This document shows, piece after piece, positions 6,264-20,493 of a stretch of DNA of 64,000 nt (the stretch's first letter is position 1; every line of letters begins with the position of its first letter). Source of the stretch: Chitinophagaceae bacterium. GTDB lineage: Bacteria > Bacteroidota > Bacteroidia > Chitinophagales > Chitinophagaceae. Made by a program: the position numbers and the translations under genes. Location: contig JALHNJ010000001.1 in the NCBI GenBank assembly GCA_022843585.1, positions 744,001 to 808,000 on the forward strand, read 5' to 3'. A model generated the notes under the pieces. That model was not told where the DNA came from. It was given only the letters and a program-made list of their open reading frames with translations, and made no database searches.

Positions 6264-6782
6264 TTAATCTTCTACTTCCACAATCATTTCAATTTCCACC
6301 GCCATATTCACCGGCAATGAACACATACCTACGGCTGATCTTGCATGTTTTCCCTTTTCGCCAAACACTTCTACCATTAAATCGGAAAAGCCATTGATAA
6401 CTTTTGGATGGTCTTTAAAATCGCCTTCGCTGTTTACCATGCCTAATACTTTTACAATTCGTTTTACTTTATTAAGACTACCAAGTTCCATTTTTAAAAC
6501 GGCCAATTGATTGATAGCAGTTAATCTTGCAGCCGCTTTTCCTTCTTCAATCGTCAGATCTTTTCCCACTTTGCCGGTGGTGTAAACACCTGCGGCATTG
6601 GTGGGTCCTTTACCTGCTAAAAATAAAAGATTACCTGTTCTAACAACATGGACATAATTAGCCATTGGTGTACTTATGACTGGCAATTCTATTTTCAATT
6701 CTTTTAATTTGTCTTCTGCAGTCTGGCTCATAACAAATATGGTTGTGTTTAGTAATAAAAGAAGGGATATAAACTTTTTCAT
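6264..6782 (-). CDS. RidA/YjgF-family protein with signal peptide
   Basis: A RidA (YjgF/YER057c/UK114) domain of about 150 residues follows an N-terminal hydrophobic leader (MKKFISLLLLLNTTIFVMSQ), so it is predicted to be exported. Typical segments are YVHVVRTGNLLFLAGKGP, the central KVKRIVKVLGMVNS and the closing HARSAVGMCSLPVNMAVEIE; the RSAVG arginine is the residue used for substrate binding in RidA. Cytosolic RidA removes reactive enamine/imine intermediates; the job of an exported copy is unknown. I start at the ATG at 6780-6782, because the longer frame upstream runs into a dispersed repeat. It is the last gene of the leftward glycerol locus, 118 bases after glpF. Confidence 0.87.
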   Translation of the reverse strand: MKKFISLLLLLNTTIFVMSQTAEDKLKELKIELPVISTPMANYVHVVRTGNLLFLAGKGPTNAAGVYTTGKVGKDLTIEEGKAAARLTAINQLAVLKMELGSLNKVKRIVKVLGMVNSEGDFKDHPKVINGFSDLMVEVFGEKGKHARSAVGMCSLPVNMAVEIEMIVEVED

Positions 6783-6820
6783 AGTGAAAGTTTTATTGTC
6801 AATTAAACTCTTCGCAAATG

Positions 6821-6888
6821 CTGAGTAGCGAATAGAAACCTGAAGAGTGCTACGCAAGGGACGATGATAGTAGCACTGTAGCTGGTTA
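6821..6888. repeat. Dispersed 68-base repeat, copy A
   Basis: This element begins ctgagtagcg, has the core cctgaagagtg and acgcaagggacgatg, and ends gtagctgg. It matches position for position the element at 37992-38059 with about 77% identity and no gaps. Here it lies between glpF and the RidA-like gene, and its orientation is opposite to their transcription. In copy B it has the same orientation as the downstream gene. That argues against a leader RNA. Confidence 0.7.
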
Positions 6889-6900
6889 CAAAATTATATT

Positions 6901-7608
6901 TTACAATAATCCAAATGCCCATGCTCCCAACAAAGCACCTGCAATAGGCCCAACTACTGGTATCCAACTATAACTCCAATCGCTATTTCTTTTTTCGGGT
7001 ATGGGTAAAATAAAATGTGCAATCCTTGGCCCCAAATCTCTGGCAGGGTTAATAGCATAACCGGTTGGTCCGCCCAATGATAAACCAATGCCTAATACCA
7101 ATAGTGCTACCGGCAACGCATCTAATGTTCCCATTGAGGATGCAGGTTTCGACATGGCTAATGCGCCAAATGTCAATATAAATGTACCGATGCACTCGGT
7201 AATAAGATTATAACCCACATTACGAATAGCAGGTGCATTACAGAACACCGCCATTTTTAAATCAGCATCCGTTGTTACATCAAAATGTTGTTTATAAGCC
7301 AGCCATGCAATACAGGCTCCAACAAAAGCACCACCAAACTGTGCAAGGATATAGGTGGGCATTAACGCAGCATCAAAATCACCAAATACCGTGAGTGCAA
7401 TAGTAATGGCGGGGTTCAGGTGACCACTGCCACCCAAATTAGTAGAAGCATATACTCCAAGAAAAACAGCCATGGCCCATCCAAATGTAATAACGATCCA
7501 TCCGCTATTTTGACCTTTTGTATTGGTAAGAAGAACATTGGCTACTACACCGGCACCCATAATAATGAGTAAAGCTGTTCCTGCAAATTCACCGATAAAT
7601 GGAGACAT
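6901..7608 (-). CDS. glpF: Glycerol uptake facilitator (aquaglyceroporin)
   Basis: A 235-residue MIP-family channel with six hydrophobic segments and the two pore half-helices: LNPA at about residue 64-67 and INPARDLGPR near 185. The Asp right after NPAR in the second motif is typical of glycerol-conducting aquaglyceroporins and not water-only aquaporins, which fits its place directly after glycerol kinase. It sits in the inner membrane and lets glycerol in by facilitated diffusion; GlpK then traps it. A gap of 109 bases with a hairpin at the glpK stop separates the two genes. Confidence 0.93.
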   Translation of the reverse strand: MSPFIGEFAGTALLIIMGAGVVANVLLTNTKGQNSGWIVITFGWAMAVFLGVYASTNLGGSGHLNPAITIALTVFGDFDAALMPTYILAQFGGAFVGACIAWLAYKQHFDVTTDADLKMAVFCNAPAIRNVGYNLITECIGTFILTFGALAMSKPASSMGTLDALPVALLVLGIGLSLGGPTGYAINPARDLGPRIAHFILPIPEKRNSDWSYSWIPVVGPIAGALLGAWAFGLL

Positions 7609-7687
7609 AGATTAGAGTTTTAAATTTTACTATTCACTTATTGTAATTATGATAATCAATTGGAAAGAATGTTTCCGGTTGCCAGTT

Positions 7688-7721
7688 ATAAGTAACCAGT
7701 AACAGGAAACTGGTTACTTAT
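7688..7721. repeat. Perfect 13-bp hairpin at the glpK stop codon
   Basis: Arms ataagtaaccagt and actggttacttat pair perfectly around an 8-base loop. The glpK stop codon (7718-7720) lies inside the right arm. There is no T-run on the minus strand after it, so it is not a typical intrinsic terminator. It may stabilise or process the glpK mRNA, or may be one of the repeat-word elements (gtaaccag family) that lie at gene ends in this window. Confidence 0.6.
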
Positions 7722-9211
7722 TCCTCCGTCCAGGCTTGCGCAGCTTTTACTGCTTTCTTCCATTTTTTTTGTAAGTCATTTCTTGTCTCATCCGTCATGG
7801 ATGGAGCAAAAGATTTATCTTTTTGCCAATACTGTTGCAGCTCATTAATGTCTTTCCAAAAACCAACTGCTAATCCTGCGAGATAGGCAGCACCCAATGC
7901 AGTTGTTTCTGTTACCTGTGGTCGTACAACATTTGTTTTGATAATGTCTGCCTGAAATTGCATCAATTGATTATTTACTGTGGCACCACCATCTACTCTT
8001 ACTTCTTTAATTGGTAAGCCAGCATCTGCTTCCATGGATTGCATTAAGTCCATCGATTGAAATGCGATGCTTTCAATAGCGGCTCTTGCAATATGGGCAT
8101 CACTGCTTCCTCTTGTTATTCCCACAATTGTTCCTCTTGCATGTTGATTCCAGTAAGGTGCACCCAAACCTGTAAATGCAGGAACAAGATAAACTCCACC
8201 ATTATCTTCTACTTTAGAAGCTAATGCTTCTACATCGCCGGAAGTTTGAATAATCTTTAATCCATCTCTCAGCCATTGTACTACGGCACCACCAATAAAT
8301 ACACTTCCTTCTAATGCATAATGAACTTCGCCATTTACTTTCCATGCAATGGTTGTGAGCAAATTATTTTTTGATGTAACGGGTTTTGTTCCAGTATTCA
8401 TCAACATAAAACAACCCGTACCATAGGTATTCTTCACCATCCCTGGCTGCGTACACATTTGTCCGAACAAAGCAGATTGCTGATCACCAGCAATACCACT
8501 AACGGGAACAGGTGTTGCCGTTAATATATTTTCTGTATGTCCATAAATTTCGCTGCTGCTGCGAACTTCGGGAAGCATATTAGACGGAATGCCGAATAGC
8601 GACAACAATTCTTCATCCCATTTCAATTCATGAATGTTATACAGTAAGGTTCTTGATGCATTCGACATATCTGTTGCATGCACTTTGCCGTTGGTTAATT
8701 TCCAAAGCAACCAGCTATCAATAGTTCCAAAACATAATTCACCTTTTTGTGCTTTATCTCTTGCGCCTTCTACATTGTCCAATATCCATTTTACTTTAGT
8801 GCCGGAGAAGTAGGCATCCGTAACCAATCCTGTTTTTGCCTGGATGGTTGGTGCATGTCCGTCTTTCTTTAGCAAATCGCAATAGTCTGCTGTTCGTCTG
8901 TCTTGCCAAACAATAGCATTGTAAATCGGAAGATGGGTATCTCTATCCCACACCACGGTTGTTTCCCGTTGATTGGTAATTCCGATAGCAGCTATATCTG
9001 TAATGTTTAGCCCTGCCTTAAGTACTGCTTCCGTAGCTACGCCTAATTGTGTGCTCCAGATCTCATTGGCATCATGCTCTACCCAACCCGGCTGCGGAAA
9101 AATTTGTGTAAACTCTTTTTGTGCGGTAGCAACAATACTTCCTTTCTTATCAAATACAATAGCTCTTGAACTGGTAGTTCCCTGGTCCAGGGACAAAATG
9201 TAATCGGGCAT
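7718..9211 (-). CDS. glpK: Glycerol kinase
   Basis: A 497-residue FGGY-family kinase, full length. It starts with the phosphate-binding [13 protein letters not shown], then has [13 protein letters not shown] and NAIVWQDRR for glycerol binding, a [13 protein letters not shown] segment, the [11 protein letters not shown] loop with the catalytic Asp, and the C-terminal ATP-binding [13 protein letters not shown]. It converts glycerol plus ATP to sn-glycerol-3-phosphate in the cytosol. It lies between glpF and the SGNH hydrolase gene in the same direction. A gap of 124 bases with an inverted repeat upstream leaves room for its own promoter. Confidence 0.97.
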
Positions 9212-9273
9212 AGCAATCGTTTATTATAATGACTAAATATAGTTTGAAAACTTTAAAAGAAATGGGCTGATTT

Positions 9274-9317
9274 CAAAGAGAACCCAGGTCTTTAAGATTT
9301 TTATTCAGTTCTCTTTG
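9274..9317. promoter_or_regulatory. 10-bp inverted repeat upstream of glpK
   Basis: caaagagaac (9274-9283) and gttctctttg (9308-9317) are perfect reverse complements around a 24-base spacer, in the gap between the SGNH hydrolase gene and glpK. It could form an mRNA hairpin separating expression of glpKF from the upstream Sus genes, or be a protein site. There is no convincing T-run after it on the minus strand. Confidence 0.4.
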
Positions 9318-9335
9318 TTCTTTCTAAATCGACTT

Positions 9336-10007
9336 CTAATCCTTTACAAGAGGCTTCAATAACATAGCCCACAACTTATAGCCTTCTGCATTTAAATGCA
9401 GCCCGTCATATGTGTATTTTTTATCCAATTTTTTATCATCGTCTAAAAAACTTAGGTGAATATTTAATACAGCAATTTTTTCTTCCGCAGGAAATTTCAT
9501 GATTGCAGAATTGACAATAGCAATATGATCGTCTTTGCCATAATGATTTTTTGCCGGAAAAGTATTATTCACCGGAAGCAGGGTTTGAAAATATATTTTG
9601 GTTTTTGGCGATTCATTTTTTATTCGCCTGATCATTTTTCTGTAGTTGTCAATTATTACACTGTCAGGAATGTTCCGTGCAATATCATTAATACCAATAA
9701 GAATAAAAACCTTGGCTGGTTTGCCTTCTATTATCTCATCTAATCTTTCCAATATGCCAAAAGTTATATCTCCTGAAATGCCCCGGTTACGGGCATCATT
9801 TATTTGTAACAGTTCGTTCCAATCGGTATAATCAGTAATACTATTGCCGAGGAAAATAATATCCTTGTCACTATTAGGGTAGCTGCGAAAATTTTCTACC
9901 CGTTGCACATAGTTGTTGGGACGAAAAGTGCTATCCCATTTTGCCGATTGTGCAGAGGTGGAAATACTCCCACTAATTATCAAGAGTAATAGAATAATTC
10001 TCTTCAT
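9336..10007 (-). CDS. Secreted SGNH/GDSL hydrolase
   Basis: A 223-residue protein with a signal peptide (MKRIILLLLIISGSISTSAQ). The SGNH blocks are all visible: block I FLGNSITDYTDW with the nucleophile Ser, block II Gly in ISGDITFGIL, block III LIGINDIARN with the Asn, and block V YDGLHLNAEGY with the catalytic Asp-x-x-His. It is a serine esterase or lipase-like acyl hydrolase acting outside the cytoplasm. It starts 3 bases after the phosphoesterase stop, so the two are translated from one mRNA. By context it may remove acyl groups from glycerolipids; that is inference. Confidence 0.9.
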   Translation of the reverse strand: MKRIILLLLIISGSISTSAQSAKWDSTFRPNNYVQRVENFRSYPNSDKDIIFLGNSITDYTDWNELLQINDARNRGISGDITFGILERLDEIIEGKPAKVFILIGINDIARNIPDSVIIDNYRKMIRRIKNESPKTKIYFQTLLPVNNTFPAKNHYGKDDHIAIVNSAIMKFPAEEKIAVLNIHLSFLDDDKKLDKKYTYDGLHLNAEGYKLWAMLLKPLVKD

Positions 10008-10010
10008 TAA

Positions 10011-11423
10011 TTATGCTTTATATATTTCAACAAATTTTTTACCGAATCGATCTGTGGCTATCACTTTTACTTCTTTTGTAGTTGCCGGAATCATTGCTTT
10101 AAACATATGTTCCGTTTTTCTTGGTTCTGCAAATCCTCTTGGCTTTGGAAGGTCTGGTCCTAATAATGTTTTGTAGGCAACAGGATCAAATCCGGTGAAT
10201 TGTTCTAATGAACCTTTTGATACACCATCCACTATATATTCTGTTTTCCACGCATCATCGTGGTTCCAGATATTTACGAGTAATTCTTTTTGTGAGTCCG
10301 GTTTGTCTTCTGCAAAAATTTTCATTTGGTGGTTAGGATCTTCACCGGTTGACTGGTATCGCCATTCTAATTGATTTCCTTTTACATTATACACACCATA
10401 ACCGCAAGGAGTACCATCACCACAAATGGCACCTGTCCACCAGGCACCGCATACAGTACCATGATTATGTTCGTAAACATTATCTGTAATTACATTGCGA
10501 TGATAGTGAGTGTGGCCTGACATGATATGAACATTTCGTCCTGCCAATAAAGGATACAATTCTTTATTATTCTTGATGCCATTGTGCACTGGTATATGTA
10601 CACAGAGAATGACTAGATTTTCTTTTGGAACAAACGAAAGGTCTTTTTGCAACCAATCTAATTGTTGCTGTGAAATATGCCCATCATACTCCCGGTCTTT
10701 TCCGAGATAGCGAACATCATCCATCACTATATAATGCGCCTTACCCCGGTTAAAAGAATAATAAGTTGGCCCGTATGTTTTTTGAAAAGTATCATCCGAT
10801 TTTTCATCACCACCTTTATTGTAATCCATATCATGGTTGCCGATACATTGGAAGAAAGGAACTCCCATCTGTTCCACCGCTTTATTATAATCCTGGAACA
10901 GGTGTAATTCGTCCCAAACAATATCACCAACCGTTATTCCATGTAATAGAGCTCCGCTGCCAGCTGCTGTTACCCATTTCTGTACATCGGGTACCGATTG
11001 CTTCATCATTTTTTCTACATCACTTGCATTTTTTACTTGAGGGTCAGCCCAAATTACAAAGCTGTGATCATTATCGTTTTTATCAAGTGGAGTAAGTGTA
11101 AAATCTCCGTCTTTCTTCCCTTTTATATTTTCAATGAATTTATAATGACTGGCAACGCCTTTCTCCTGTAAAAATTCATAACCGGCAGGGGTGCTAATGA
11201 AAATTGTTGTGGCATCAGGATGTGGTTCCAATTCATATTTTCCATTACTATCTGTTACTACTACAGAATATCCATCGCTAACTACTACCGATTTTATTCC
11301 ATAGCCTTTGGCTGAAACTCTTCCTTTTATTTTTTTACCGGTTGTTATTGCAGGCAATGAGCCCGCCATCATTAATCCACCGGTAAGCCATGCGGTATGT
11401 TGTATAAACTTTCTTCGTTGCAT
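10011..11423 (-). CDS. Calcineurin-like metallophosphoesterase, exported
   Basis: A 470-residue protein beginning MQRRKFIQHTAWLTGG, a twin-arginine-like export signal. Residues about 30-110 form a beta-sandwich N-terminal domain. The metallophosphoesterase core follows with IWADPQVK (the first metal motif has Gln where D-x-H is usual), GDIVWDE, CIGNHD, LCVHIPVH and SGHTHYHRN, so the dimetal site looks intact. A C-terminal beta domain (from about 350) completes the known three-part architecture. It likely cleaves a phosphomonoester or phosphodiester in the periplasm or at the surface. It lies 3 bases from both neighbours, so it belongs to the Sus transcription unit. Confidence 0.88.
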   Translation of the reverse strand: MQRRKFIQHTAWLTGGLMMAGSLPAITTGKKIKGRVSAKGYGIKSVVVSDGYSVVVTDSNGKYELEPHPDATTIFISTPAGYEFLQEKGVASHYKFIENIKGKKDGDFTLTPLDKNDNDHSFVIWADPQVKNASDVEKMMKQSVPDVQKWVTAAGSGALLHGITVGDIVWDELHLFQDYNKAVEQMGVPFFQCIGNHDMDYNKGGDEKSDDTFQKTYGPTYYSFNRGKAHYIVMDDVRYLGKDREYDGHISQQQLDWLQKDLSFVPKENLVILCVHIPVHNGIKNNKELYPLLAGRNVHIMSGHTHYHRNVITDNVYEHNHGTVCGAWWTGAICGDGTPCGYGVYNVKGNQLEWRYQSTGEDPNHQMKIFAEDKPDSQKELLVNIWNHDDAWKTEYIVDGVSKGSLEQFTGFDPVAYKTLLGPDLPKPRGFAEPRKTEHMFKAMIPATTKEVKVIATDRFGKKFVEIYKA

Positions 11424-11426
11424 AAT

Positions 11427-12926
11427 TTATTCTTCAATAGTTGTGGCTCCTTCAATTTCAGCAACAGTTGAAGCAGCGGTTAATCCAATTGCATTTAATG
11501 TGCGGGCTGTTGTCCATCTGCCCGTTATAATATTATAGGTGCCTCCAAGCCTTACAAAATTGGTGGCGGGAGGAAAAGCTAATTTGCCTGTATTGGACCC
11601 CTGGTTAAAGTATGGCTGTAATTGTAAAGTTGATGGATTTGTGATATCGTAGTAATCAGTATTACTAATCTTATAACCTCTTTCGGGGGGGCCAGCTGTG
11701 TAAAGACTGCCACCACCACCATAAAATAACACATCGACTGGAATAGTATCATTGGTAACGTTAGTAAGATCGAAGACTGCTATCCCACCTGCATTTCCAC
11801 TATTTGCTAACAAATTAGTAGTGGCAGTGCCAAAGCCATCTCCCGCAACAGAGGCATACATTTTACTTATCCAAAAAGAAGAGCTAATATTAGTAGAGCC
11901 TGCACCCCAAATATTTTTATTAGCACCTACATAAATATATTGGCCTTTTGTAACTGTACCTGAAGTAATATTTATTTTATATGTTCTTGCACCACCAGTA
12001 GCCCATCCATTTGCCGGAAAACCTGTTGGTACATTAGCTCCGGCATTATTTGTTGTTACTAAAGAAAAATTATTTACAGCAAAATCAATATTTTTTGTAG
12101 CCAATAATTGTACATACTCATAGTTGGCATCTGTTCCTGTTGGGTCAACTAAGTATCCCGTAATTACTAATGGAGCAATTTTGGGTGCAGTCGCACTAAG
12201 AATAACGATGTCTGCAATTGTTCTTGGCCACAACTGTGGAGATGTTGTTTCGTTTTTGAAAATTATACCTGTAAAGTTTGATAAGAAAGGAATAACGTTG
12301 TTAGCATAACTGGCAGTGGGTTCTGTATGCAATATCAGGTTTCCAAAACCATCGTTGATGATTTTGTCTCCCAGATATGTAGTGCCTGCAGGATAGGAAG
12401 CATCAAAGCCAACTCTTGTAACAGTTATTAATGTACTTTCAAAACCATCAGGATTGGCTAATACTGCATTAGCTTTTACAATTAAAGGCGTTACGGTATT
12501 ACCAGATGAAATTTTTGTGATGTCGCTGCTTTCAATACCCGTTACCTGAAGTATGCCATTTATTCTTTTTAAAACAGCACCAACCATATTAATAACCAAA
12601 GAATCTCCAGGTTGGTAACTGGCTGCATCAGGACCAATGGCTATTGAAATTCCACGAGCCTGTGAAAGACGACGACTATCTTGTAAAATCAATAAACCTG
12701 CAGGCAAATTTCCACCTGAATGATCTGAAGTTACAATACCGGTGATTTTATCAGAGCCAAACATATTGTCTATGCCCAGGGTAACGTCAGCTCCTTTATA
12801 TAAATCCCGAATATCAAAAATAGAGATATAGGGACTGATTTTCCCTCCCGGATAATTTTCTTTTTTGCATCCTAACAAACCAATCATGGCCGTTAAAATG
12901 AATAAGTATATTATATTTTTTTTCAT
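11427..12926 (-). CDS. DUF5689-domain surface lipoprotein
   Basis: About 499 residues, starting at the ATG at 12924-12926 (MKKNIIYLFILTAMIGLLGC); the lipobox LLGC gives a lipidated Cys at about residue 20 and KKENYPGG follows. Residues about 35-250 match the DUF5689 pattern (ISIFDIRDLYKG, ITGIVTSDHSGGN, ILQDS). The C-terminal half (ITGYLVDPTGTDANYEYVQL and on) looks like a lamin-tail-type beta domain. Such proteins often accompany SusC/SusD pairs and are thought to bind substrate at the surface. A start at 12983 would overlap susD; I reject it because the signal peptide begins at the later Met. It is 3 bases before the phosphoesterase gene. Confidence 0.8.
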   Translation of the reverse strand: MKKNIIYLFILTAMIGLLGCKKENYPGGKISPYISIFDIRDLYKGADVTLGIDNMFGSDKITGIVTSDHSGGNLPAGLLILQDSRRLSQARGISIAIGPDAASYQPGDSLVINMVGAVLKRINGILQVTGIESSDITKISSGNTVTPLIVKANAVLANPDGFESTLITVTRVGFDASYPAGTTYLGDKIINDGFGNLILHTEPTASYANNVIPFLSNFTGIIFKNETTSPQLWPRTIADIVILSATAPKIAPLVITGYLVDPTGTDANYEYVQLLATKNIDFAVNNFSLVTTNNAGANVPTGFPANGWATGGARTYKINITSGTVTKGQYIYVGANKNIWGAGSTNISSSFWISKMYASVAGDGFGTATTNLLANSGNAGGIAVFDLTNVTNDTIPVDVLFYGGGGSLYTAGPPERGYKISNTDYYDITNPSTLQLQPYFNQGSNTGKLAFPPATNFVRLGGTYNIITGRWTTARTLNAIGLTAASTVAEIEGATTIEE

Positions 12927-12964
12927 TGCTGTTATTTTAAAAAGTGTTTTAAACATTTTTATCA

Positions 12965-14476
12965 TTATGGTTTTTGCCACCAAACCTGTGTTGATATTAC
13001 ATCTGGTCCCTGTGCTGCAACAGCTAATTGATAATTGGTTGGATTAGTTGACTGAACATACACTGGGTATGTCATTCTTGCGGGCATTATACCATTATTT
13101 CTTAAGCCAGCTCCAACTGGCAAAACAGGGTGCCCGGTACGACGATACTCAAACCATTGTTGATGATCCGCCAGAAACAGTGCATAATATTTTTGCAAAT
13201 GAATCTGTTCCATTTTATCATTCAATGTTCCTGTATTGTCCCAGGCTATATCTGCTGCTGCTAAATAAGTTGCAATCGGAACAGACCAACCGGGAACCCA
13301 TAGCGTTATGCTATTTAAAACACCATCGTTGTAATGAGTTTCTGCTGAACTGCTAATCCATCCTTTTACAGCAGCTTCCGCCATTATAAATTTTAGCTCC
13401 GCATAATTCATCATCATACCTGTTAACGGATCAGTTTGCAAGCTGACAGCGGAAGTATTGGAATAGAAATAGGACTTTTTAATAGGATCTGCTCCGGGAG
13501 AGTAACCACTGGGTACACCACTAAAAGCGCCTTGATACGGAGCTATACGCCACCTGTTAATTCCACTTGTTCCCAAGCTTATGTCAATACGTGGGTCATT
13601 CCATACTACCAGGTTATCAATAAAGAAACTGGCAATACCCGGCGCTCTAAAATCTTGTTCTCTTACATTATTATAAGGAGATGTATAAGGTCCAGCCCCT
13701 GTCCATCTTAAAATAGCCGATTCGTCGTTATTAGCCATTACCGGATATTCAGCAGGACGATCTTGCAAAATGTCTTTAATTTTTGCAGCACATAAACTGG
13801 TTACTTCCGCTTTTCCGGAAATTCTTAATAGTAAGCGTAAGTATAAGGAGTTTCCAAACTTACGCCAGCGGGAAACACTGCCACTGTAAACAGGATCGCT
13901 GGTGCCAATGATTGTTCTATTGAGACTTAGTAACATATTAGCTTCTTCCAATTTTTGAAAAATATCAAGATAAATATCTCGTTGTCTGTCAAATCTTGGT
14001 TCAAAGATGCTACTATCACGGGCAAGATTTGATTGAGAATAAGGTATATCACCATACGTATCTGTAAGTATCGAGTATATCCATGATTGACAAATAAGAG
14101 AAATGCCCATATAGGATTCGTTGCGATTAAGATCTGTGCTTGCAATCTTATATACATCTTTAAAATTGCTCAACTCGGAATATAATCCGTTATAGAGATA
14201 ATCTGCCCAGTTTGCTCGGTAGTCATACCTGAATACTTTCCCTTCTCCATCACCAAGATCAACAGAAACCTGCATCAATTCGTTATTAAAGTTCCTGTTA
14301 CGAATCATATTATAGGTTAGTGTATTAACAAGTGCAGGAGGTAGCAATTGCTGTGGTAAAGCCACAGGGTTGGCATTAGGGTCAGTATTTATCTCTTCGA
14401 AATTTTTTGTGCAGGATGCAAGTACAATACTGAATAGTATTGCAACATATGATAATTTATATAACATTGTTTTCAT
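12965..14476 (-). CDS. SusD/RagB-family nutrient-binding lipoprotein
   Basis: A 503-residue SusD-like protein of the SusD-like_2 type. The lipobox VLASC (near residue 21) is followed by TKNFEEINTDPNANP, the usual start of mature SusD-like proteins of this type. Helical TPR-like segments run through the chain, and the C-terminal part has the common HLQKYYALFLADHQQWFEYRRTG-type ending (only part quoted). It is the outer-membrane lid that binds substrate and passes it to the SusC barrel. It begins 11 bases after the susC stop, a translationally linked pair. The ligand cannot be read from sequence; the locus suggests a glycerol-containing compound. Confidence 0.92.
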   Translation of the reverse strand: MKTMLYKLSYVAILFSIVLASCTKNFEEINTDPNANPVALPQQLLPPALVNTLTYNMIRNRNFNNELMQVSVDLGDGEGKVFRYDYRANWADYLYNGLYSELSNFKDVYKIASTDLNRNESYMGISLICQSWIYSILTDTYGDIPYSQSNLARDSSIFEPRFDRQRDIYLDIFQKLEEANMLLSLNRTIIGTSDPVYSGSVSRWRKFGNSLYLRLLLRISGKAEVTSLCAAKIKDILQDRPAEYPVMANNDESAILRWTGAGPYTSPYNNVREQDFRAPGIASFFIDNLVVWNDPRIDISLGTSGINRWRIAPYQGAFSGVPSGYSPGADPIKKSYFYSNTSAVSLQTDPLTGMMMNYAELKFIMAEAAVKGWISSSAETHYNDGVLNSITLWVPGWSVPIATYLAAADIAWDNTGTLNDKMEQIHLQKYYALFLADHQQWFEYRRTGHPVLPVGAGLRNNGIMPARMTYPVYVQSTNPTNYQLAVAAQGPDVISTQVWWQKP

Positions 14477-14487
14477 TGTTTCTAAAT

Positions 14488-17400
14488 TTATAGTCCAACA
14501 ATAAGATTAAATCCTAAAGTCCTTGTAGATGGGAATTGGCCAATTTCAAAGCCTGTTACTATATCTGTTCCGGCCAATGTTCCAAACTCAGGATCAAACA
14601 TGGGCCATGGAGACCATATAAAAAGGTTGCGTCCGTATATGCCAAATGTTAATCGTTGTAACCCCAGTTTCTTTGTAACTTTTGCATTGAGGCTATAATC
14701 GAGCCGGGCTTCTCTGAATTTGATAAAGTCGGTACTAAAAGTGCTGCCTTCAGCATTATCAATTCCCCAATGAGAACGGTAATATTCATCTATATCTGTA
14801 GCAATGGTAGTATTCGGAATATATTTTCCATCTACATCCAATACAACTCCATTACCTATAATACCGTTGTAGCGGCCGGGTAAGGTCTTTGTTAATTTTC
14901 CCTGCTCCGCCATTTTATAATGCATAAGAGAGTGTCCAACAGCACCAAATTGTGCATCAAACAAAACGTTCAGCGTAAATCCTTTTAATGAAAATTCATT
15001 ACCAAAACTTACTTTACCCTTAGGTATGGTGTTGCCCAAGTAAACAACATCTTGCGAAATTTGTGCAAATCCTGTTGTAGCATCATATACCACTTGTCCA
15101 TCAGGGGCTCTTACGTATCCTCGTCCGTACAAGTCTCCCATACTGCCGCCAACTTTAGCTACGATCTGCCCACCACCAACTGGTCCGGTACGAAGAACTA
15201 CTGAACTATCTGCAAGCTCTGCTACTTTATTGCGGTTAGTTGAGAAAAGTATACTAGATGTCCAGGTAAGTCCTTTGGTCGATTTTATTGGAGTGCCGAG
15301 AAGTGCTATTTCCAGTCCTTGATTATTTACCCTACCGGCATTTATTATTGCCCTGGAAAAACCAGCCGAACGATCAATAACTCTTTCCAATATTTGATTC
15401 TTTGTATTTCCTGTATACACAGCAAAGTCGAAGCTCAAACGGTTTTTAAACATTTTTATATTGGTTCCCGCCTCGTAGGTGATTGTTTTAAGCGGCTTTA
15501 AATCGGGATTGGCTAATGTGGCTGGATTTTGCAGACCACCATTGTATAAACTTCCTGCAGTTGCAAAATTAAATGCTGTACGATAAGGTACTGTTCCACC
15601 TCCACCAACTCCGGAAATGGAAAATCTGAATTTTGCAAAGTCGATTGATTTTGGCAGATTGAAAATTTCCGAAGCAATAAAGCTTACGTTAGCCGATGGA
15701 TAAAAGAAACCTGCATTAGTAGTGCGTAGTGGGGTAGCTAATACGCTGTTCCAATCCTGACGACCTGTTAAATCCAGGAATAGAAAATTTTTATAGGCCG
15801 ATGTAATTACACCATAAAAACTATTGATACCATATTCACTTTTCCAGGGGATAGTAACTAATGGGCCGGCACTGTTTGACATGGAATACACACCGGGGTA
15901 AGTAAGTGAGTCTGCACGGTTTTCATCCCTGTTATAATTGTTACGTAAAATGCTACCGCCACCAGTTATAGAAAAATCAAAATCATTATTTATTTTTTTA
16001 CTGTATTTCAACAAAAAGTCGCTGCTGGCTTCTTGTGAGAAAATGTTCTGTGTTCTATAACTTCCTTTTTGAAATCTTGAACCTGCATCATATGGACGTT
16101 CTTGTGATCTTTGCTCATAGCTCATATCCATCGATGTTCTTACTTGTAAGCTCAGGTCTTTTGTAAAATTATAAGTGGCCTGAAGGCTTCCGGTAACGCC
16201 ATGCCTGTTAGAGCGGTTAAGAAATTCGTAAGCAACAGCGTAAGGGTTTTCTGGAAATGTACTGTAAGGATATAATATTCTTCTTCCTTCTTGCCCGTTA
16301 ACCCAATAGTTTTTCAACCAATCAAGGTCGGCATTTGGTTGCCAGAAAATAAACCAGTACATGATGGATTGGTTGCCATAACCATTTCCAGGAAGGTTAT
16401 CGCTCCATTTATTTGTATAATTTATTTTGGCTGCAATCTGTAGTTTGTCACTAATTTTTGAGTTTACTGACAATGCTACTGTATTACGCTTATAACCCGT
16501 GTTGGGCATAATCCAGTTATTAGAAACGTTGGTTAGTGAGAAACGGGCCGTTGTTTTTTCTGTCCCACCGCTTAAACTTATGCTATTGGTGATAGTATTA
16601 CCCTCTTCAAAATAATCTCGCAGCTTATTTTCATAGCCTACCCATGGAGTTCTTTCTACACCCCGGGCTTGTGTAACCGGATCAAACTGATAAAACGATT
16701 GGCCATTAAATCGTGGGCCATATGCAGAACTTGTTGCACTGGTACTTGCACCATCCGCAGACGCTCCGAAAGAATAATAAGGGGTGCCATCAAGTCCCTG
16801 GCCATATTCAAATTGCATATCAGGCCACCTGTTTATTTGCTCAATTGAGGCATTGGAATTAAAAGTGATGCCGATACCTTTTTTCTTGCTATTACTTCCG
16901 CCAGATTTAGTTGTAATAACTATGGCACCATTGGCAGCTCTTTCACCATACAACGCAGCCGCGCCAGGTCCTTTTAATACTGTTACAGATTCAATGTCCT
17001 CCGGGTTTATATCATTCAAGCTGCTTCCATAGTCAGCAGGCATATTATCACTACCAGTGCCATACGGCGTTTCACCACTAATACTGCTACGGCGACCGCT
17101 TCCCTGGTTTATAATTACTCCATCTACCACTATCAGTGCTTCGTTATCGCCGGTAAGATTATTTTCTCCCCGCAAAATTATTTTGTTCGAACCTGCAGGG
17201 CCTCCATTGGAACGAACAAGATTTAAACCAGCTACTTTTCCGGATAGTGCATCCGTCCAGTTGCTGGATAAGGCGTTGGTAAGCTCTTCTCCTTTTACAG
17301 TAGTAGTGGCATAGCCTAATGCTTTTTCCTCTCTTTTTATACCGAGTGCTGTAACTACAACACCTTCCATCTCTTGATTATTATTTATTAAATCAATATT

Positions 17401-17706
17401 GATGACAGTGCGATTGCCTACTCTGGTTTCAAAATTTTTATAACCAACAGCTGAAATAATCAGTGTTTGATTATCACTTGCTTTTAATGAGTAAGCTCCT
17501 TTGTCGTCGGTGAGTGTACCTGACCTGGTGCCTTTTATCTGCACCGAAGCATTCGCAATCGGCGAACCATCTTCAGGGTTTTTAACTACACCACTAACTG
17601 TTTTTTCCTGTGCCAATGCAGCAAAACTGATGGTAAGGAGCAAACAAGCCAGCAACAAGCGGGGGCCTGCAAGTAATTTTTTTGCAGCAGTTGTTAGCGA
17701 TCTCAT
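14488..17706 (-). CDS. SusC/RagA TonB-dependent outer-membrane transporter
   Basis: With the start at the ATG at 17704-17706 (MRSLTTAAKKLLAGP) the protein has 1072 residues and a signal peptide ending near FAALAQ. Then come the carboxypeptidase-like domain (KTVSGVVKNPEDGSPIANAS), the SusC plug signature (ALGIKREEKALGYATTTVKG; VVDGVIINQG; IESVTVLKGPGAAALYGERA) and a long TonB-dependent beta barrel ending in NLIVGL. A frame opening at 17853 would put about 50 residues before the signal peptide, so I reject it. It imports a substrate bound by SusD, energised by TonB. It is the first Sus gene of the unit, after glpD. Confidence 0.95.
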   Translation of the reverse strand: MRSLTTAAKKLLAGPRLLLACLLLTISFAALAQEKTVSGVVKNPEDGSPIANASVQIKGTRSGTLTDDKGAYSLKASDNQTLIISAVGYKNFETRVGNRTVINIDLINNNQEMEGVVVTALGIKREEKALGYATTTVKGEELTNALSSNWTDALSGKVAGLNLVRSNGGPAGSNKIILRGENNLTGDNEALIVVDGVIINQGSGRRSSISGETPYGTGSDNMPADYGSSLNDINPEDIESVTVLKGPGAAALYGERAANGAIVITTKSGGSNSKKKGIGITFNSNASIEQINRWPDMQFEYGQGLDGTPYYSFGASADGASTSATSSAYGPRFNGQSFYQFDPVTQARGVERTPWVGYENKLRDYFEEGNTITNSISLSGGTEKTTARFSLTNVSNNWIMPNTGYKRNTVALSVNSKISDKLQIAAKINYTNKWSDNLPGNGYGNQSIMYWFIFWQPNADLDWLKNYWVNGQEGRRILYPYSTFPENPYAVAYEFLNRSNRHGVTGSLQATYNFTKDLSLQVRTSMDMSYEQRSQERPYDAGSRFQKGSYRTQNIFSQEASSDFLLKYSKKINNDFDFSITGGGSILRNNYNRDENRADSLTYPGVYSMSNSAGPLVTIPWKSEYGINSFYGVITSAYKNFLFLDLTGRQDWNSVLATPLRTTNAGFFYPSANVSFIASEIFNLPKSIDFAKFRFSISGVGGGGTVPYRTAFNFATAGSLYNGGLQNPATLANPDLKPLKTITYEAGTNIKMFKNRLSFDFAVYTGNTKNQILERVIDRSAGFSRAIINAGRVNNQGLEIALLGTPIKSTKGLTWTSSILFSTNRNKVAELADSSVVLRTGPVGGGQIVAKVGGSMGDLYGRGYVRAPDGQVVYDATTGFAQISQDVVYLGNTIPKGKVSFGNEFSLKGFTLNVLFDAQFGAVGHSLMHYKMAEQGKLTKTLPGRYNGIIGNGVVLDVDGKYIPNTTIATDIDEYYRSHWGIDNAEGSTFSTDFIKFREARLDYSLNAKVTKKLGLQRLTFGIYGRNLFIWSPWPMFDPEFGTLAGTDIVTGFEIGQFPSTRTLGFNLIVGL

Positions 17707-17920
17707 AATGATTAAATTATTAGGGTTGAAAAAATAAAAAATTGGGGCAGACAATGCAGTAGAGTGTCGAAAAAAAGAATCGACAGCTTTTGAACTGTTA
17801 TACAGCTCAATCTCTTTTCTTTTTTTCTGCCCGCAAAGAAATGACAGCTTCATATGTGCAATCGTTATTGGTTGTTATGAAATAATTAAGTTCTGTCCGT
17901 ACTATTGTACAATTCAGAAA
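17707..17920 (-). promoter_or_regulatory. Leader and possible promoter of the susC unit
   Basis: A 214-base gap between glpD and susC. On the minus strand a TTG and, 18-19 bases later, tTTCTTTG (close to TAnnTTTG, one mismatch) lie around 17830-17860, which would give a long untranslated leader. A small inverted repeat (tgtcga 17765-17770 / tcgaca 17780-17785) lies within that leader. No strong terminator follows glpD, so readthrough is also possible. Confidence 0.3.
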
Positions 17921-19525
17921 TTATTTTAATATATACTGTTCTGCTAATTGATTGAAACTGGTAACCTGCTCATCTATCCACTCCTGGTTTCTTCCTAATG
18001 CTTTTGCCATCACCACAGCTACTTCGGCCGCAATGCGACGGCTCTCTCTGGCATCCAATAAAAGTGCTCTTGTTCTTCTTGATAAAAAGTCTTCTATTGT
18101 TCTGGCCATTTCATGTTCTACTGCCCAGGTAATTTGTGTTTTATGAATTTTCAATTCCTCACTGATCCATTGATTAGCATCGCCATTCATTTGCTGGCGA
18201 ATTAATTTTGCATCACTTCCATAGAAGTACAAGGGATCTTTCCAGTTAATATTATTTTCGTAGCCATGAATATGTAAACTGGCGGTGGTAGGTTCGTTGT
18301 GTTGCCAGCGTAAATCTTTTTCGATCCTGTTTACCATGTCTTCTCCCATTTTGCGATAAGTAGTCCATTTGCCACCAAGAATAGTAAACAGATGGGAGGC
18401 AGAAACAATGATCTTATGACTGCGGGAAATTTCTTTCGTTTTCTGTTCTCCATTTTGTGGTGCTGCTAATGGACGGAGGCCTGCAAACACACTCAACACA
18501 TTACTGCGCTGCGGTTTTCTTTTCAGGTAGCTACCTGCTGTTTCCAATATAAAAGAGATCTCTTTTTCCAATGCCTGCGGTTCAAGCGATGCTTCTTCAA
18601 CCGGTGTATCCGTAGTACCCACTACTACTTTACCATGCCAGGGTACAGCAAATAATACACGGCCGTCACTTGTTTTTGGTATCATCAACGCATCGCTGCT
18701 CGGATAAAATTCTTTGTCCAATACAATGTGTACACCCTGGCTTACACAAATGGTTTTGGCACTGCCGGGTTTATCCATCATTAATATATCATCTACAAAA
18801 ACACCCGTAGCATTTACAACGGCTTTAGTTTGTAGTTGAAAGATTTTTTTTGTTTCAGTATCTTCTGCCACCACACTGGTAATATTTCCTTTATCATTCT
18901 TTAAAAGGTTCACCACTTTTACATAGTTAATAGCCGTGCCGCCGGCTTCCAAAATACTTTGTGCTAGGTTGATGGCAAGGCGGGAATCATCAAATTGTCC
19001 ATCATGATACAGAACGCCGCCTTTTAATCCCTTCTCATTTATACCAGGCATTTTTTCTAATGCCTCTTTACGGGAAATAAAATTGGATGGACCAAGGCGA
19101 AGCTTGCCGGCAATACGGTCGTACAATTTTAAACCGATGGTGTATTTCAATTTGTCCCAAAGGCTATAAACCGGAACAATAAAAGTTTGATTTTTTACAA
19201 GGTGTGGCGCATTTTGGTGTAGTAAGCCTCTTTCAATACTGGCTTCCCGTACCAATTTTACATCGCCTTGTGCCAGGTAGCGAACACCGCCATGTACCAA
19301 CTTGGTGCTGCGGCTGGATGTGCCTTTTGCAAAGTCAGACTGTTCAAGCAGTAGGGTTTTATATCCCCGGGAAACTGCATCCAATGCAATTCCTAACCCG
19401 GTGGCACCTCCTCCAATAACAATAATATCCCACTCGGAATTGGGGTTGGCCAACCTTTCTAATTGTTGACTGCGGTTGGTAATATTGACTGAATTGAGTA
19501 AATCGTTCATTTTCAATCCCTTCAT
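17921..19525 (-). CDS. glpD: Glycerol-3-phosphate dehydrogenase (FAD)
   Basis: A 534-residue aerobic-type GlpD/GlpA-family enzyme. The N-terminal FAD-binding Rossmann motif is IIVIGGGATGLGIALDA, followed by SRSTKLVHGGVRYL, the DAAD-family substrate loop, and the C-terminal domain of the GlpO/GlpD type (TRALLLDARESR). It oxidises sn-glycerol-3-phosphate to dihydroxyacetone phosphate and passes electrons to the quinone pool at the inner membrane. Starts at 19525 (MKGLKMND) and 19510 (MNDLLNSV) are both possible; an AAGGG lies just before the second. It is divergent from the GlpR-like gene and is the first gene of the leftward locus. Confidence 0.95.
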   Translation of the reverse strand: MKGLKMNDLLNSVNITNRSQQLERLANPNSEWDIIVIGGGATGLGIALDAVSRGYKTLLLEQSDFAKGTSSRSTKLVHGGVRYLAQGDVKLVREASIERGLLHQNAPHLVKNQTFIVPVYSLWDKLKYTIGLKLYDRIAGKLRLGPSNFISRKEALEKMPGINEKGLKGGVLYHDGQFDDSRLAINLAQSILEAGGTAINYVKVVNLLKNDKGNITSVVAEDTETKKIFQLQTKAVVNATGVFVDDILMMDKPGSAKTICVSQGVHIVLDKEFYPSSDALMIPKTSDGRVLFAVPWHGKVVVGTTDTPVEEASLEPQALEKEISFILETAGSYLKRKPQRSNVLSVFAGLRPLAAPQNGEQKTKEISRSHKIIVSASHLFTILGGKWTTYRKMGEDMVNRIEKDLRWQHNEPTTASLHIHGYENNINWKDPLYFYGSDAKLIRQQMNGDANQWISEELKIHKTQITWAVEHEMARTIEDFLSRRTRALLLDARESRRIAAEVAVVMAKALGRNQEWIDEQVTSFNQLAEQYILK

Positions 19526-19529
19526 TAGG

Positions 19530-19638
19530 TTTCATTTTAACTCAAAACGAAACTGATTAATAAGAAAATGAAAGTAAAGAAAAATTTAACTAAACAATTA
19601 AAAATATTTCGAAATAACAGTGATTTTTTATTGTTTCG
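19530..19638. promoter_or_regulatory. Divergent glpD/regulator control region with TTTCG boxes
   Basis: Between glpD and the GlpR/DeoR-type gene the DNA carries tttcatttt (19530-19538), cgaaa (19548-19552), the palindrome atttcgaaat (19606-19615) and tttcg (19634-19638). DeoR-family regulators such as AgaR bind repeated TTTCR words, so these are candidate operators for the neighbouring regulator. A weak promoter-like ttatcttttg (about 19667-19676) lies before the regulator gene. Confidence 0.4.
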
Positions 19639-19704
19639 TATCGGGAGGTGGCTTTAGACTTATTTTATCTTTTGAAATTCAATAACATCTGATTAAATTG
19701 ACGC

Positions 19705-20493
19705 ATGGCTGTCTCTAAAAATATAGTGGTACATACGCTGGCCGAACGGCACCAGCATATCCTGGATACCTTAAAGAAGGAAGGAAAAGTAAATGTGCTT
19801 GACCTTTGTAATGACTTAAATGTTTCGTCGGTTACAATTCGAAAGGATTTAAAACTGCTGGAGACCAAAAACCTTTTATTCCGCACACATGGTGGTGGCA
19901 CACTCAGCAATCCTTATACTGCCGACAGGCATGTGAGTGAGAAAGAAAAAATAAAAGCAAAAGAAAAAGCAGACATCGGTACTGTTGCAGCAGAGTTAAT
20001 AGAACAAGATGATTGTATAATCATTGCATCTGGTACCACCGTTCTTTCTTTGGCAAAAAGTATAAAACCGCAAGGTCATCTTACCGTTATTACAGCAGCA
20101 TTGAATGTGGCTACTGAATTAAATCATGATCCTGATATAGAAGTATTGGTATTAGGTGGCATACTTAGAAAAAGTTCTTCTTCCGGGACAGGTTTGTATG
20201 CAGAAAAAATGCTCGAAGATTTTTCTTGCAGCAAATTATTTTTGGGGGTGGATGGAATTGATATCGAATTTGGTCTAACTACCACCCATGTAATGGAAGC
20301 TCAACTCAACCGCAAAATGATTGAAGCCGCACAAAAAACAATTGTACTCACCGACTCAAGCAAATTTGGCAAACGGGGCTTTGGAAGAATTTGTGGCTTA
20401 GAAGAAGTAGACCAGATTATTACTGATAGCGGCATCTCTGAACATCTGCAAGAAAAATTGAGAGGGATGGGAATTGAGGTGACGATTGTTTAA
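19705..20493 (+). CDS. glpR: DeoR/GlpR-family transcriptional repressor
   Basis: A 262-residue DeoR-family regulator. Residues about 10-60 form the helix-turn-helix (ILDTLKKEGKVNVLDLCNDL ... SSVTIRKDLK), followed by the family hinge FRTHGGG. The C-terminal sensor domain (about 80-255) shows IIIASGTTVLSLAKSI and FLGVDGIDIEFGLTT, which bind a phosphorylated sugar-type effector. Lying divergently beside glpD, it is most likely GlpR responding to glycerol-3-phosphate and repressing the leftward locus; the effector is inferred from position. Its last 4 bases overlap the end of the converging DUF5686 gene. Confidence 0.88.
   Translation: MAVSKNIVVHTLAERHQHILDTLKKEGKVNVLDLCNDLNVSSVTIRKDLKLLETKNLLFRTHGGGTLSNPYTADRHVSEKEKIKAKEKADIGTVAAELIEQDDCIIIASGTTVLSLAKSIKPQGHLTVITAALNVATELNHDPDIEVLVLGGILRKSSSSGTGLYAEKMLEDFSCSKLFLGVDGIDIEFGLTTTHVMEAQLNRKMIEAAQKTIVLTDSSKFGKRGFGRICGLEEVDQIITDSGISEHLQEKLRGMGIEVTIV

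Follow-up and report, generated by a model that had tools for sequence, protein, structure and literature searches.

A 64,000-nucleotide stretch of the genome of a Chitinophagaceae bacterium (GenBank assembly GCA_022843585.1, contig JALHNJ010000001.1, positions 744,001 to 808,000), hereafter the window, carries a glycerol (glp) locus in which genes for a SusC-SusD outer-membrane pair (SusCD), a DUF5689 lipoprotein, an exported metallophosphoesterase (MPE) and a secreted SGNH hydrolase lie between glpD and glpK. SusCD systems have been described mainly for glycans. This locus is probably an operon for scavenging glycerol-phosphate, in which GlpR-governed uptake of glycerophosphodiesters or phospholipid fragments has been docked into glp and the receptor is exchangeable. 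Comparison of genomes demonstrated, at the level of sequence, the gene content of the locus, its recurrence, the absence of the inserted genes from a sister genome and the exchange of the receptor genes in another. The arrangement is more than chance, because the order GlpR, GlpD, SusCD, DUF5689, MPE, SGNH, GlpK recurs in four loci from other genera (L033, L039, L042 and L057; L labels denote loci or stretches that were read, G labels the genomes sampled).

Organization of the locus

The features of the locus are as follows.

6264..6782, minus strand: RidA-like exported protein (Pfam PF14588/PF01042)
6901..7608, minus strand: GlpF, MIP-family channel, an aquaglyceroporin by context (PF00230; TIGR00861 171.4 bits, cut-off 171.25)
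7718..9211, minus strand: GlpK glycerol kinase (TIGR01311 756.9 bits; NF000756 839.5)
9336..10007, minus strand: secreted SGNH/GDSL hydrolase (PF13472; alignment of 9 sequences; PDB profile search)
10011..11423, minus strand: MPE, exported calcineurin-like metallophosphoesterase, MetallophosN-core-MetallophosC (PF16371, PF16370; alignment; trees)
11427..12926, minus strand: DUF5689 lipoprotein (PF18942 88.2 bits; weak lamin-tail match PF00932, below cut-off)
12965..14476, minus strand: SusD-like lipoprotein, SusD-like_2 (PF12771 347.9 bits)
14488..17706, minus strand: SusC-like TonB-dependent transporter (TIGR04056 549.7 bits)
17921..19525, minus strand: GlpD-type FAD glycerol-3-phosphate dehydrogenase (PF01266, DAO; PF16901, DAO_C)
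19528..19575, no strand assigned: putative GlpR operator, three TTTCRTTTT-type repeats (position weight matrix cluster directly upstream of glpD)
19705..20493, plus strand: divergent DeoR/GlpR-family regulator (PF00455, PF08220)

Transcription of glpD-susC-susD-DUF5689-MPE-SGNH-glpK-glpF-ridA runs along the minus strand (6264-19525), with the regulator divergent. The ten genes, strands and families named in a preliminary description of the sequence were borne out by open reading frames (ORFs) and by Pfam and NCBIfam matches, with small corrections of three starts, picked by eye from signal peptides: 17706 is the likely start of susC (the ORF begins at 17853), 12926 that of DUF5689 (12983) and 6782 that of RidA (6857). 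The close spacing reported there from susC to the SGNH gene also held, with gaps of 11 bp (susC-susD), 38 bp (susD-DUF5689), 3 bp (DUF5689-MPE) and 3 bp (MPE-SGNH), while glpK and glpF follow after longer gaps of 124 and 109 bp; glpD and susC are 214 bp apart.

SusC adjoins a SusD lipoprotein at 11 bp, as in SusCD-type uptake systems, and an exported phosphoesterase stands in the same locus, as in PusCD-type loci. GlpK, GlpD and GlpF together with a DeoR-type regulator mark a glp locus, and the association of GlpD, GlpK and GlpF was frequent in relatives. GlpD scored under the NCBIfam GlpD cut-off (296.8 vs 360). The regulator matched AgaR best in NCBIfam (252.9 bits, under the cut-off of 260) and is called GlpR for its position. 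The sole other GlpK match in the genome was an FGGY kinase (23% identical, E 4.5e-16). None of the ten window proteins matched a glycosidase or lyase family in Pfam, and the locus is thus not classed as a polysaccharide utilization locus (PUL).

RidA looks like part of the ordinary glp locus of the genus, outside the inserted module, because 7 of the 14 loci read in the genus that are without the module have it downstream of GlpF (L234, L241, L243-L246 and L248, with one ORF intervening in L244); it also follows GlpF in eight family loci. Directly past the glpK stop, at about 7691-7718, a 9-bp inverted repeat with a 10-base loop and no T-rich tail was noted by eye; it may form a hairpin for processing or attenuation ahead of glpF.

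Distribution of SusCD in glp loci

GlpK was found at E<=1e-100 in 92 of 147 sampled genomes of the family, the genome of the window included, and 89 glpK loci were read from 87 of these (two each from G106 and G039; G139, G041, G122 and G128, with partial genes, and G116, with a 42% match, were left unread). Further glpK loci of G007, G006 and G096 (L224-L226) were read and excluded from the counts. SusD relatives at E<=1e-60 occurred in 38 of the 147 genomes, again counting that of the window. Orthologous SusCD stood inside the glp gene run in 11 of the 89 loci, and an unrelated SusD_RagB-type pair beside glpD in two more (L203, L217). The other 76 had no SusCD in or abutting their glp genes. 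Some SusC lay within 9 kb in 17 loci; L176 was dropped from the SusC-bearing set (12 to 11), its SusC sitting beyond ECF-sigma/FecR genes, and L072, where GDPD (glycerophosphodiester phosphodiesterase) is among the glp genes and a distantly related SusCD (28% SusD) follows glpF at a distance of about 3 kb, was scored as without SusCD. A GlpR-type gene was present in 9 of the 13 loci with any SusCD vs 9 of the 76 without.

In a set of 80 glpK loci from named organisms, the glpK ORF was called in 76 and SusC stood in the gene run in two, L096 (Pontibacter sp.) and L100 (Arcticiflavibacter luteus). L104 (Pedobacter boryungensis) carries a SusCD-DUF5689-MPE set next to its glpR. The preliminary description had named absence of the susCD pair from the glp loci of most relatives as evidence against its proposal, and that absence is literally what the survey found. 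Its picture of a SusCD system built into a complete glycerol locus stands as to position, with the amendment that the insertion is a dispensable, lineage-restricted module. We read the rarity of the insertion as recent docking, not as lack of function, because unrelated SusCD pairs have joined glp several times.

Partner genes

Of the 11 orthologous SusCD-glp loci, 9 had a GDPD gene in the run as well, the exceptions being the window and L047, and 5 of the 78 remaining loci had one with their glp genes (Fisher p 1.5e-7, a value that ignores relatedness). In these counts the GDPD of G039 was taken from an adjoining stretch, L232, and that of L217 belongs to the glpD run, which the regulator separates from glpK. 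The L033 copy matched PF03009 with 131 bits. Gene order varied, with GDPD-SGNH-MPE-PLDc_2-DUF5689-SusD-SusC-GlpT-like-GlpD in L232 (G039) and GlpD-GlpK-GlpF-GDPD-SusC-SusD-MPE-GDPD-GlpT-like in L238 (G264). L039 and L232 contain an MFS gene that we take to be GlpT-like (Pfam gives MFS_1 only), L232 a PLD-like gene, and L039 a GH36 alpha-galactosidase gene between GDPD and glpK. The substrate class first proposed for the window, a glycerophosphodiester or glycerolipid, gains from the GDPD genes and, through single loci, from the PLD-like, GlpT-like and alpha-galactosidase genes; it loses from the lack of GDPD and GlpT in the window operon, which therefore does not qualify as a GDPD-based glycerophosphodiester utilization locus.

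Non-orthologous SusD_RagB pairs in or beside glp genes were found in L096, L203, L217 and L224, and in every case a phosphoester-cleaving enzyme accompanies them: GDPD and MPE in L096, a PF04185 phosphoesterase in L203, GDPD in L217 and a purple-acid-phosphatase-like protein in L224. L100 is a further SusCD-glp case with a GDPD-domain protein, its SusD call being weak. The partner enzymes also occurred apart from the receptor or from glp. L176 and L178 have the order GlpD-MPE-SGNH-GlpK-GlpF-GDPD without SusCD among these genes, and in L239 and L240 SusC-SusD-DUF5689-MPE-GDPD-SGNH form one unit with glpK about 82 and 70 kb off on the same contig.

In the window, the SGNH-glpK gap (9212-9335) corresponds to the place of GDPD in L033, L042 and L057. 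No convincing GDPD remnant was detected there (best tblastn E 0.34). One of the GDPD genes elsewhere in the genome, that on C12, was considered as a relocated module gene and rejected: G530, G532 and G556 have copies of it with 95%, 87% and 68% identity, and G091 has it (69%) as well as a module GDPD (47%).

Other phosphoester-cutting enzymes were observed near SusCD or glp genes. L229 (3307-13687) is another phosphoester-type cassette, free-standing, with SusC-SusD-DUF5689, a sigma-type gene, FecR, an endonuclease/exonuclease/phosphatase-family protein and an SGNH near the window type. In L061 (7529-9103) a type I phosphodiesterase/nucleotide pyrophosphatase (PF01663) follows a relative of the SusCD pair, beside which no DUF5689 or MPE was called. 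L202 (2950-6305) has an alkaline phosphatase with a GDPD_2 match and a PF01663 phosphodiesterase upstream of GlpR-GlpD-GlpK-GlpF-MPE; in the parts of the source consulted, an alkaline phosphatase-GDPD_2 domain pair is reported for PhoA1 of Flavobacterium PUSII (PMC8115612). A scan of viral contigs confirmed no relative of the window SusD.

Module absence and receptor exchange in sister genomes

GlpK was present in 35 of 42 genomes of the genus, and 18 of these 35 glpK loci were read, the window included (17 unread). GlpR and the inserted module occurred together in two of the 18 loci and were both missing from 16, in which no DeoR/GlpR-family regulator was found. One sister, G530 (L234), has a GlpK 98% identical to that of the window and at the same site is without GlpR, SusCD, DUF5689, MPE and SGNH; only 67 bp separate its glpD from glpK, and past the point where glpR is missing the flank shows 91.6% identity. 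No MPE was found at E<=1e-30 in G530 or G556 (93 and 97% complete). On these comparisons the block from SusC to SGNH, with GlpR, behaves in the genus as a docking module that is present or absent as a unit; it may have been gained in the line of the window or lost in the others. In L236 (2960-9122) and L237, both among the 16 module-free loci, a SusC-SusD-MPE group (MPE 66% identical to that of the window) neighbours a GlpK-GlpD-GlpF locus and is parted from glpK by one opposite-strand gene.

The second module-bearing locus, L233 of G532, was close to the window in GlpR (97%), GlpD (92%), MPE (90%), SGNH (80%), GlpK (97%), GlpF (85%) and RidA (97%), and distant in SusC (58%), SusD (44%) and DUF5689 (32%). 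At the DNA level, similarity of about 83% ran from 22608 into SusC, to 16358, was nearly lost beyond that point (one 65.5% stretch) and returned at 11288 inside MPE. SusC identity started at 93% (first 60 residues), stood at 58-73% as far as residue 420 or so and was mostly 43-63% after; MPE identity was 58% in the first 60 residues, then 85%, then >=95%. Because these profiles are graded and not sharp, the exact breakpoints of the exchange are not fixed. The G532 receptor set was nearest to that of L057, from another genus and likewise glp-linked (SusD 69%, SusC 72%, DUF5689 57%). By this pattern the SusC-SusD-DUF5689 receptor part was exchanged while the enzymes stayed.

Phylogeny of receptor and enzymes

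On a SusD tree of 37 rows, the labels 'in glp' and 'free-standing' needed 9 changes, at least 4 of them forced by starred branches; with 43 rows (four borderline loci not counted) there were 10 changes, at least 5 forced. L232 was left out of the SusD trees as it overlaps L044. These labels were clustered no more than shuffled labels. In a 21-row MPE tree the glp-linked MPEs formed one side of a branch with support 99. This clean split was dropped on addition of L233 and L236-L240 (27 rows), as the free L239 and L240 copies fell among the glp-linked MPEs; the labels then required 2-3 changes, below every shuffle. The 20 free-standing cassettes had a FecR-type neighbour in 11 cases and an ECF-sigma-type neighbour in 7, as called by protein clusters with one member of each checked by Pfam.

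Regulatory sequences

TTTCRTTTT-type repeats were common to the regulator-glpD intergenic regions of relatives, and an operator matrix was built from the regulator intergenic regions of 28 of them. The cluster at 19528-19575 scored 37.7, the top of the 64-kb window (runner-up 30.1), and no comparable cluster preceded susC or glpK in the window. No minus-strand terminator was found in the gaps between operon genes by a sigma-70/terminator scan, a weak method here. A Bacteroidota-type promoter pattern, its consensus being one we assumed, gave 0 exact matches in the window vs 3.3 expected, which carries no information. A single GlpR-controlled transcript is plausible from the arrangement of genes and repeats.

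Properties of the proteins

The MPE motifs DxQ, GD, GNHD, H and GHTH were invariant in an alignment of 21 sequences, window included; DxQ stands where DxH is usual in metallophosphoesterases. The MPE N-terminus is twin-arginine-like. Its nearest solved sequences were weak matches, to purple acid phosphatases (E 4e-5) and Rv0805 (E 0.006). A fold search with the weak structure model gave no match at E<=0.001; the best hits, all sub-threshold, were calcineurin-superfamily SbcD, 2nxf and acid sphingomyelinase, with unrelated folds lower down, and the search was used merely as agreement with Pfam. In SGNH the motifs GNSIT, GxND and DGLHL were invariant in 9 aligned sequences, and a PDB profile search placed 6njc and 7pzg (named sialate O-acetylesterase and lysophospholipase L1) nearest, with PAF acetylhydrolases lower. 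SusD had many solved relatives, the best being 3ejn, which do not fix its ligand. DUF5689, a putative surface ligand-binding partner of SusCD, had no solved relative below E 0.29 in the same type of search.

Proposed function and alternatives

From the gene families and their linkage we infer the substrate, the order of reactions, control by GlpR and co-transcription. SusCD with DUF5689 would take glycerophosphodiester-type molecules (deacylated or lyso-phospholipids and similar glycerol-phosphate debris) across the outer membrane. Outside the cytoplasm, the SGNH esterase and MPE, with GDPD in most relatives, would remove acyl and phosphate groups, and an unlinked GDPD may perhaps contribute in the genome of the window. 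Freed glycerol would enter by GlpF and be converted by GlpK to glycerol 3-phosphate and by GlpD to dihydroxyacetone phosphate, feeding glycolysis, with GlpR controlling the operon. Dephosphorylation before uptake would fit GlpF and GlpK, because the operon is without GlpT.

A number of observations weigh against this interpretation. The SusCD-GDPD link is not significant once relatedness is counted: the GlpK tree offers 4-5 independent pairs on supported branches, in which GDPD goes with SusCD in 3.5-4.0 on average and the opposite way in 0-0.2 (sign test, median p 0.125). The window operon lacks GDPD and GlpT, on which the case rests in other loci. The genome has two GDPD genes that exceed the Pfam cut-off, both outside the operon; the C12 GDPD is found in module-bearing and module-free sisters alike, and upstream of it there is none of the five top operator-like clusters of its 20-kb stretch. 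The glp-type MPE is not tied to glp, as L239 and L240 illustrate. Among 395 genomes sampled across the phylum, seven encode a close MPE (E<=1e-110), that of the window included; only in two of the six others, G029 and G264, is glpK no more than 10 kb away from it. The operator cluster score was reached by 3 of 20 Markov-1 controls and exceeded at an unrelated place in L227 (39.6), and separate promoters are possible because the 214- and 124-bp gaps leave room for them. No specificity is derivable from the structure models of MPE (mean pLDDT 54) or DUF5689 (pLDDT 30.8, discarded).

The module might instead consume remains of dead Gram-positive cells, namely pieces of teichoic or lipoteichoic acid, the pathway being the same and the ligand another; we regard this alternative as unlikely. 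GDPD and MPE would depolymerise the polymer, SGNH would take off ester substituents and the glycerol would pass to glp. The usual ligands of SusCD importers are larger than free glycerophosphodiesters, and GDPD, esterase, phosphoesterase and the GH36 alpha-galactosidase of L039 would suit a substituted poly-glycerol-phosphate. The PLD-like gene in L232, the PF04185 phosphoesterase in L203 and the lysophospholipase/PAF-acetylhydrolase-like SGNH point instead to lipids; Pfam found no peptidoglycan-cutting family among the ten window proteins, and no such locus appeared in the literature among the matches listed.

Somewhat less likely again is phosphate scavenging of the kind known from Flavobacterium PUS, with phosphate the prize and glp a convenient sink. 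In the passages available, PUS loci pair SusCD with periplasmic phosphoesterases whose proposed targets are lipid headgroups and nucleic acids (PMC8115612), and the free-standing cassette relatives, with their FecR- and ECF-sigma-type neighbours, are not under GlpR. Set against this, the window set is enclosed by glp genes, with a GlpR-type gene divergent from them and repeats resembling operators at glpD, and in the genus GlpR and module are found together or are both missing.

That an unrelated SusCD cassette fell by chance between glpD and glpK, with no functional link, is highly improbable: the module is indeed missing from most relatives' glp loci and from G530, and about ten genomes have SusD orthologues (62-74% identical) a long way from glpK, but different SusCD types have been recruited to glp, the module tracks GlpR, and GDPD, MPE and SGNH recur as partners. 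Glycosylglycerol or galactolipid headgroups as main substrate, suggested by the GH36 gene of L039, are just as improbable, since GH36 was found in 1 of 11 loci (not every unassigned ORF having been scanned) and phosphoesterases are the common partners.

Relation to known systems

The bacterial glp regulon comprises GlpR, GlpD, GlpK and GlpF, with GlpQ/GlpT/Ugp for glycerophosphodiesters. The window shares its intracellular pathway and repressor family, and GDPD and a GlpT-like MFS protein join in relatives; it differs in its SusCD outer-membrane uptake, in an operon without GDPD or GlpT and in a regulator whose best match is AgaR. With PULs it has in common the SusC-SusD pair, a surface lipoprotein and exported hydrolases in a single run, whereas its ten proteins include no glycosidase or lyase family (its relative L039 has GH36).

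No description of a SusCD-glp locus was found in titles and abstracts of the open-licence PMC literature, among the matches listed. As far as the passages seen reveal, the closest known systems are the Flavobacterium PUS/PusCD loci (PMC8115612, PMC8812569), in which SusCD adjoins periplasmic phosphodiesterases and phosphomonoesterases, PusD is polyphyletic and expression is induced by phosphate depletion (PMC8115612). Both have SusCD and an exported phosphoesterase; those passages of PMC8115612 contain no glp genes, and the word 'glycerol' is absent from its main text, whereas the window set shares its locus with a regulator, glpD, glpK, glpF and SGNH, joined in relatives by GDPD. In Bacteroides thetaiotaomicron, BT4724-25 (TonB receptor, RagB/SusD) are likewise close to a GDPD-family gene, BT4727, but are known from lines of an iron-stimulon table, with no glp context in the passages seen (PMC10434189).

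Tentatively, and with less confidence than we place in the function itself, we suggest that outer-membrane receptors may be interchangeable parts that dock at the glp locus. Recombination with edges in the N-terminal part of SusC and the N-terminus of MPE might swap SusC-SusD-DUF5689 while enzymes and regulator stay, so that related species would share one catabolic pathway behind separately evolving receptors, driven by choice of ligand or by escape from phages that use SusC. The sister comparison provides a natural experiment in which SusCD specificity changes and the downstream pathway is constant, and the recurrent SusCD-GDPD-SGNH-phosphoesterase partners are concrete genes to test. If SusCD serves glycerol catabolism in these loci, alongside its GDPD, SGNH and phosphoesterase partners, the range of SusCD systems would extend to lipid-derived carbon.

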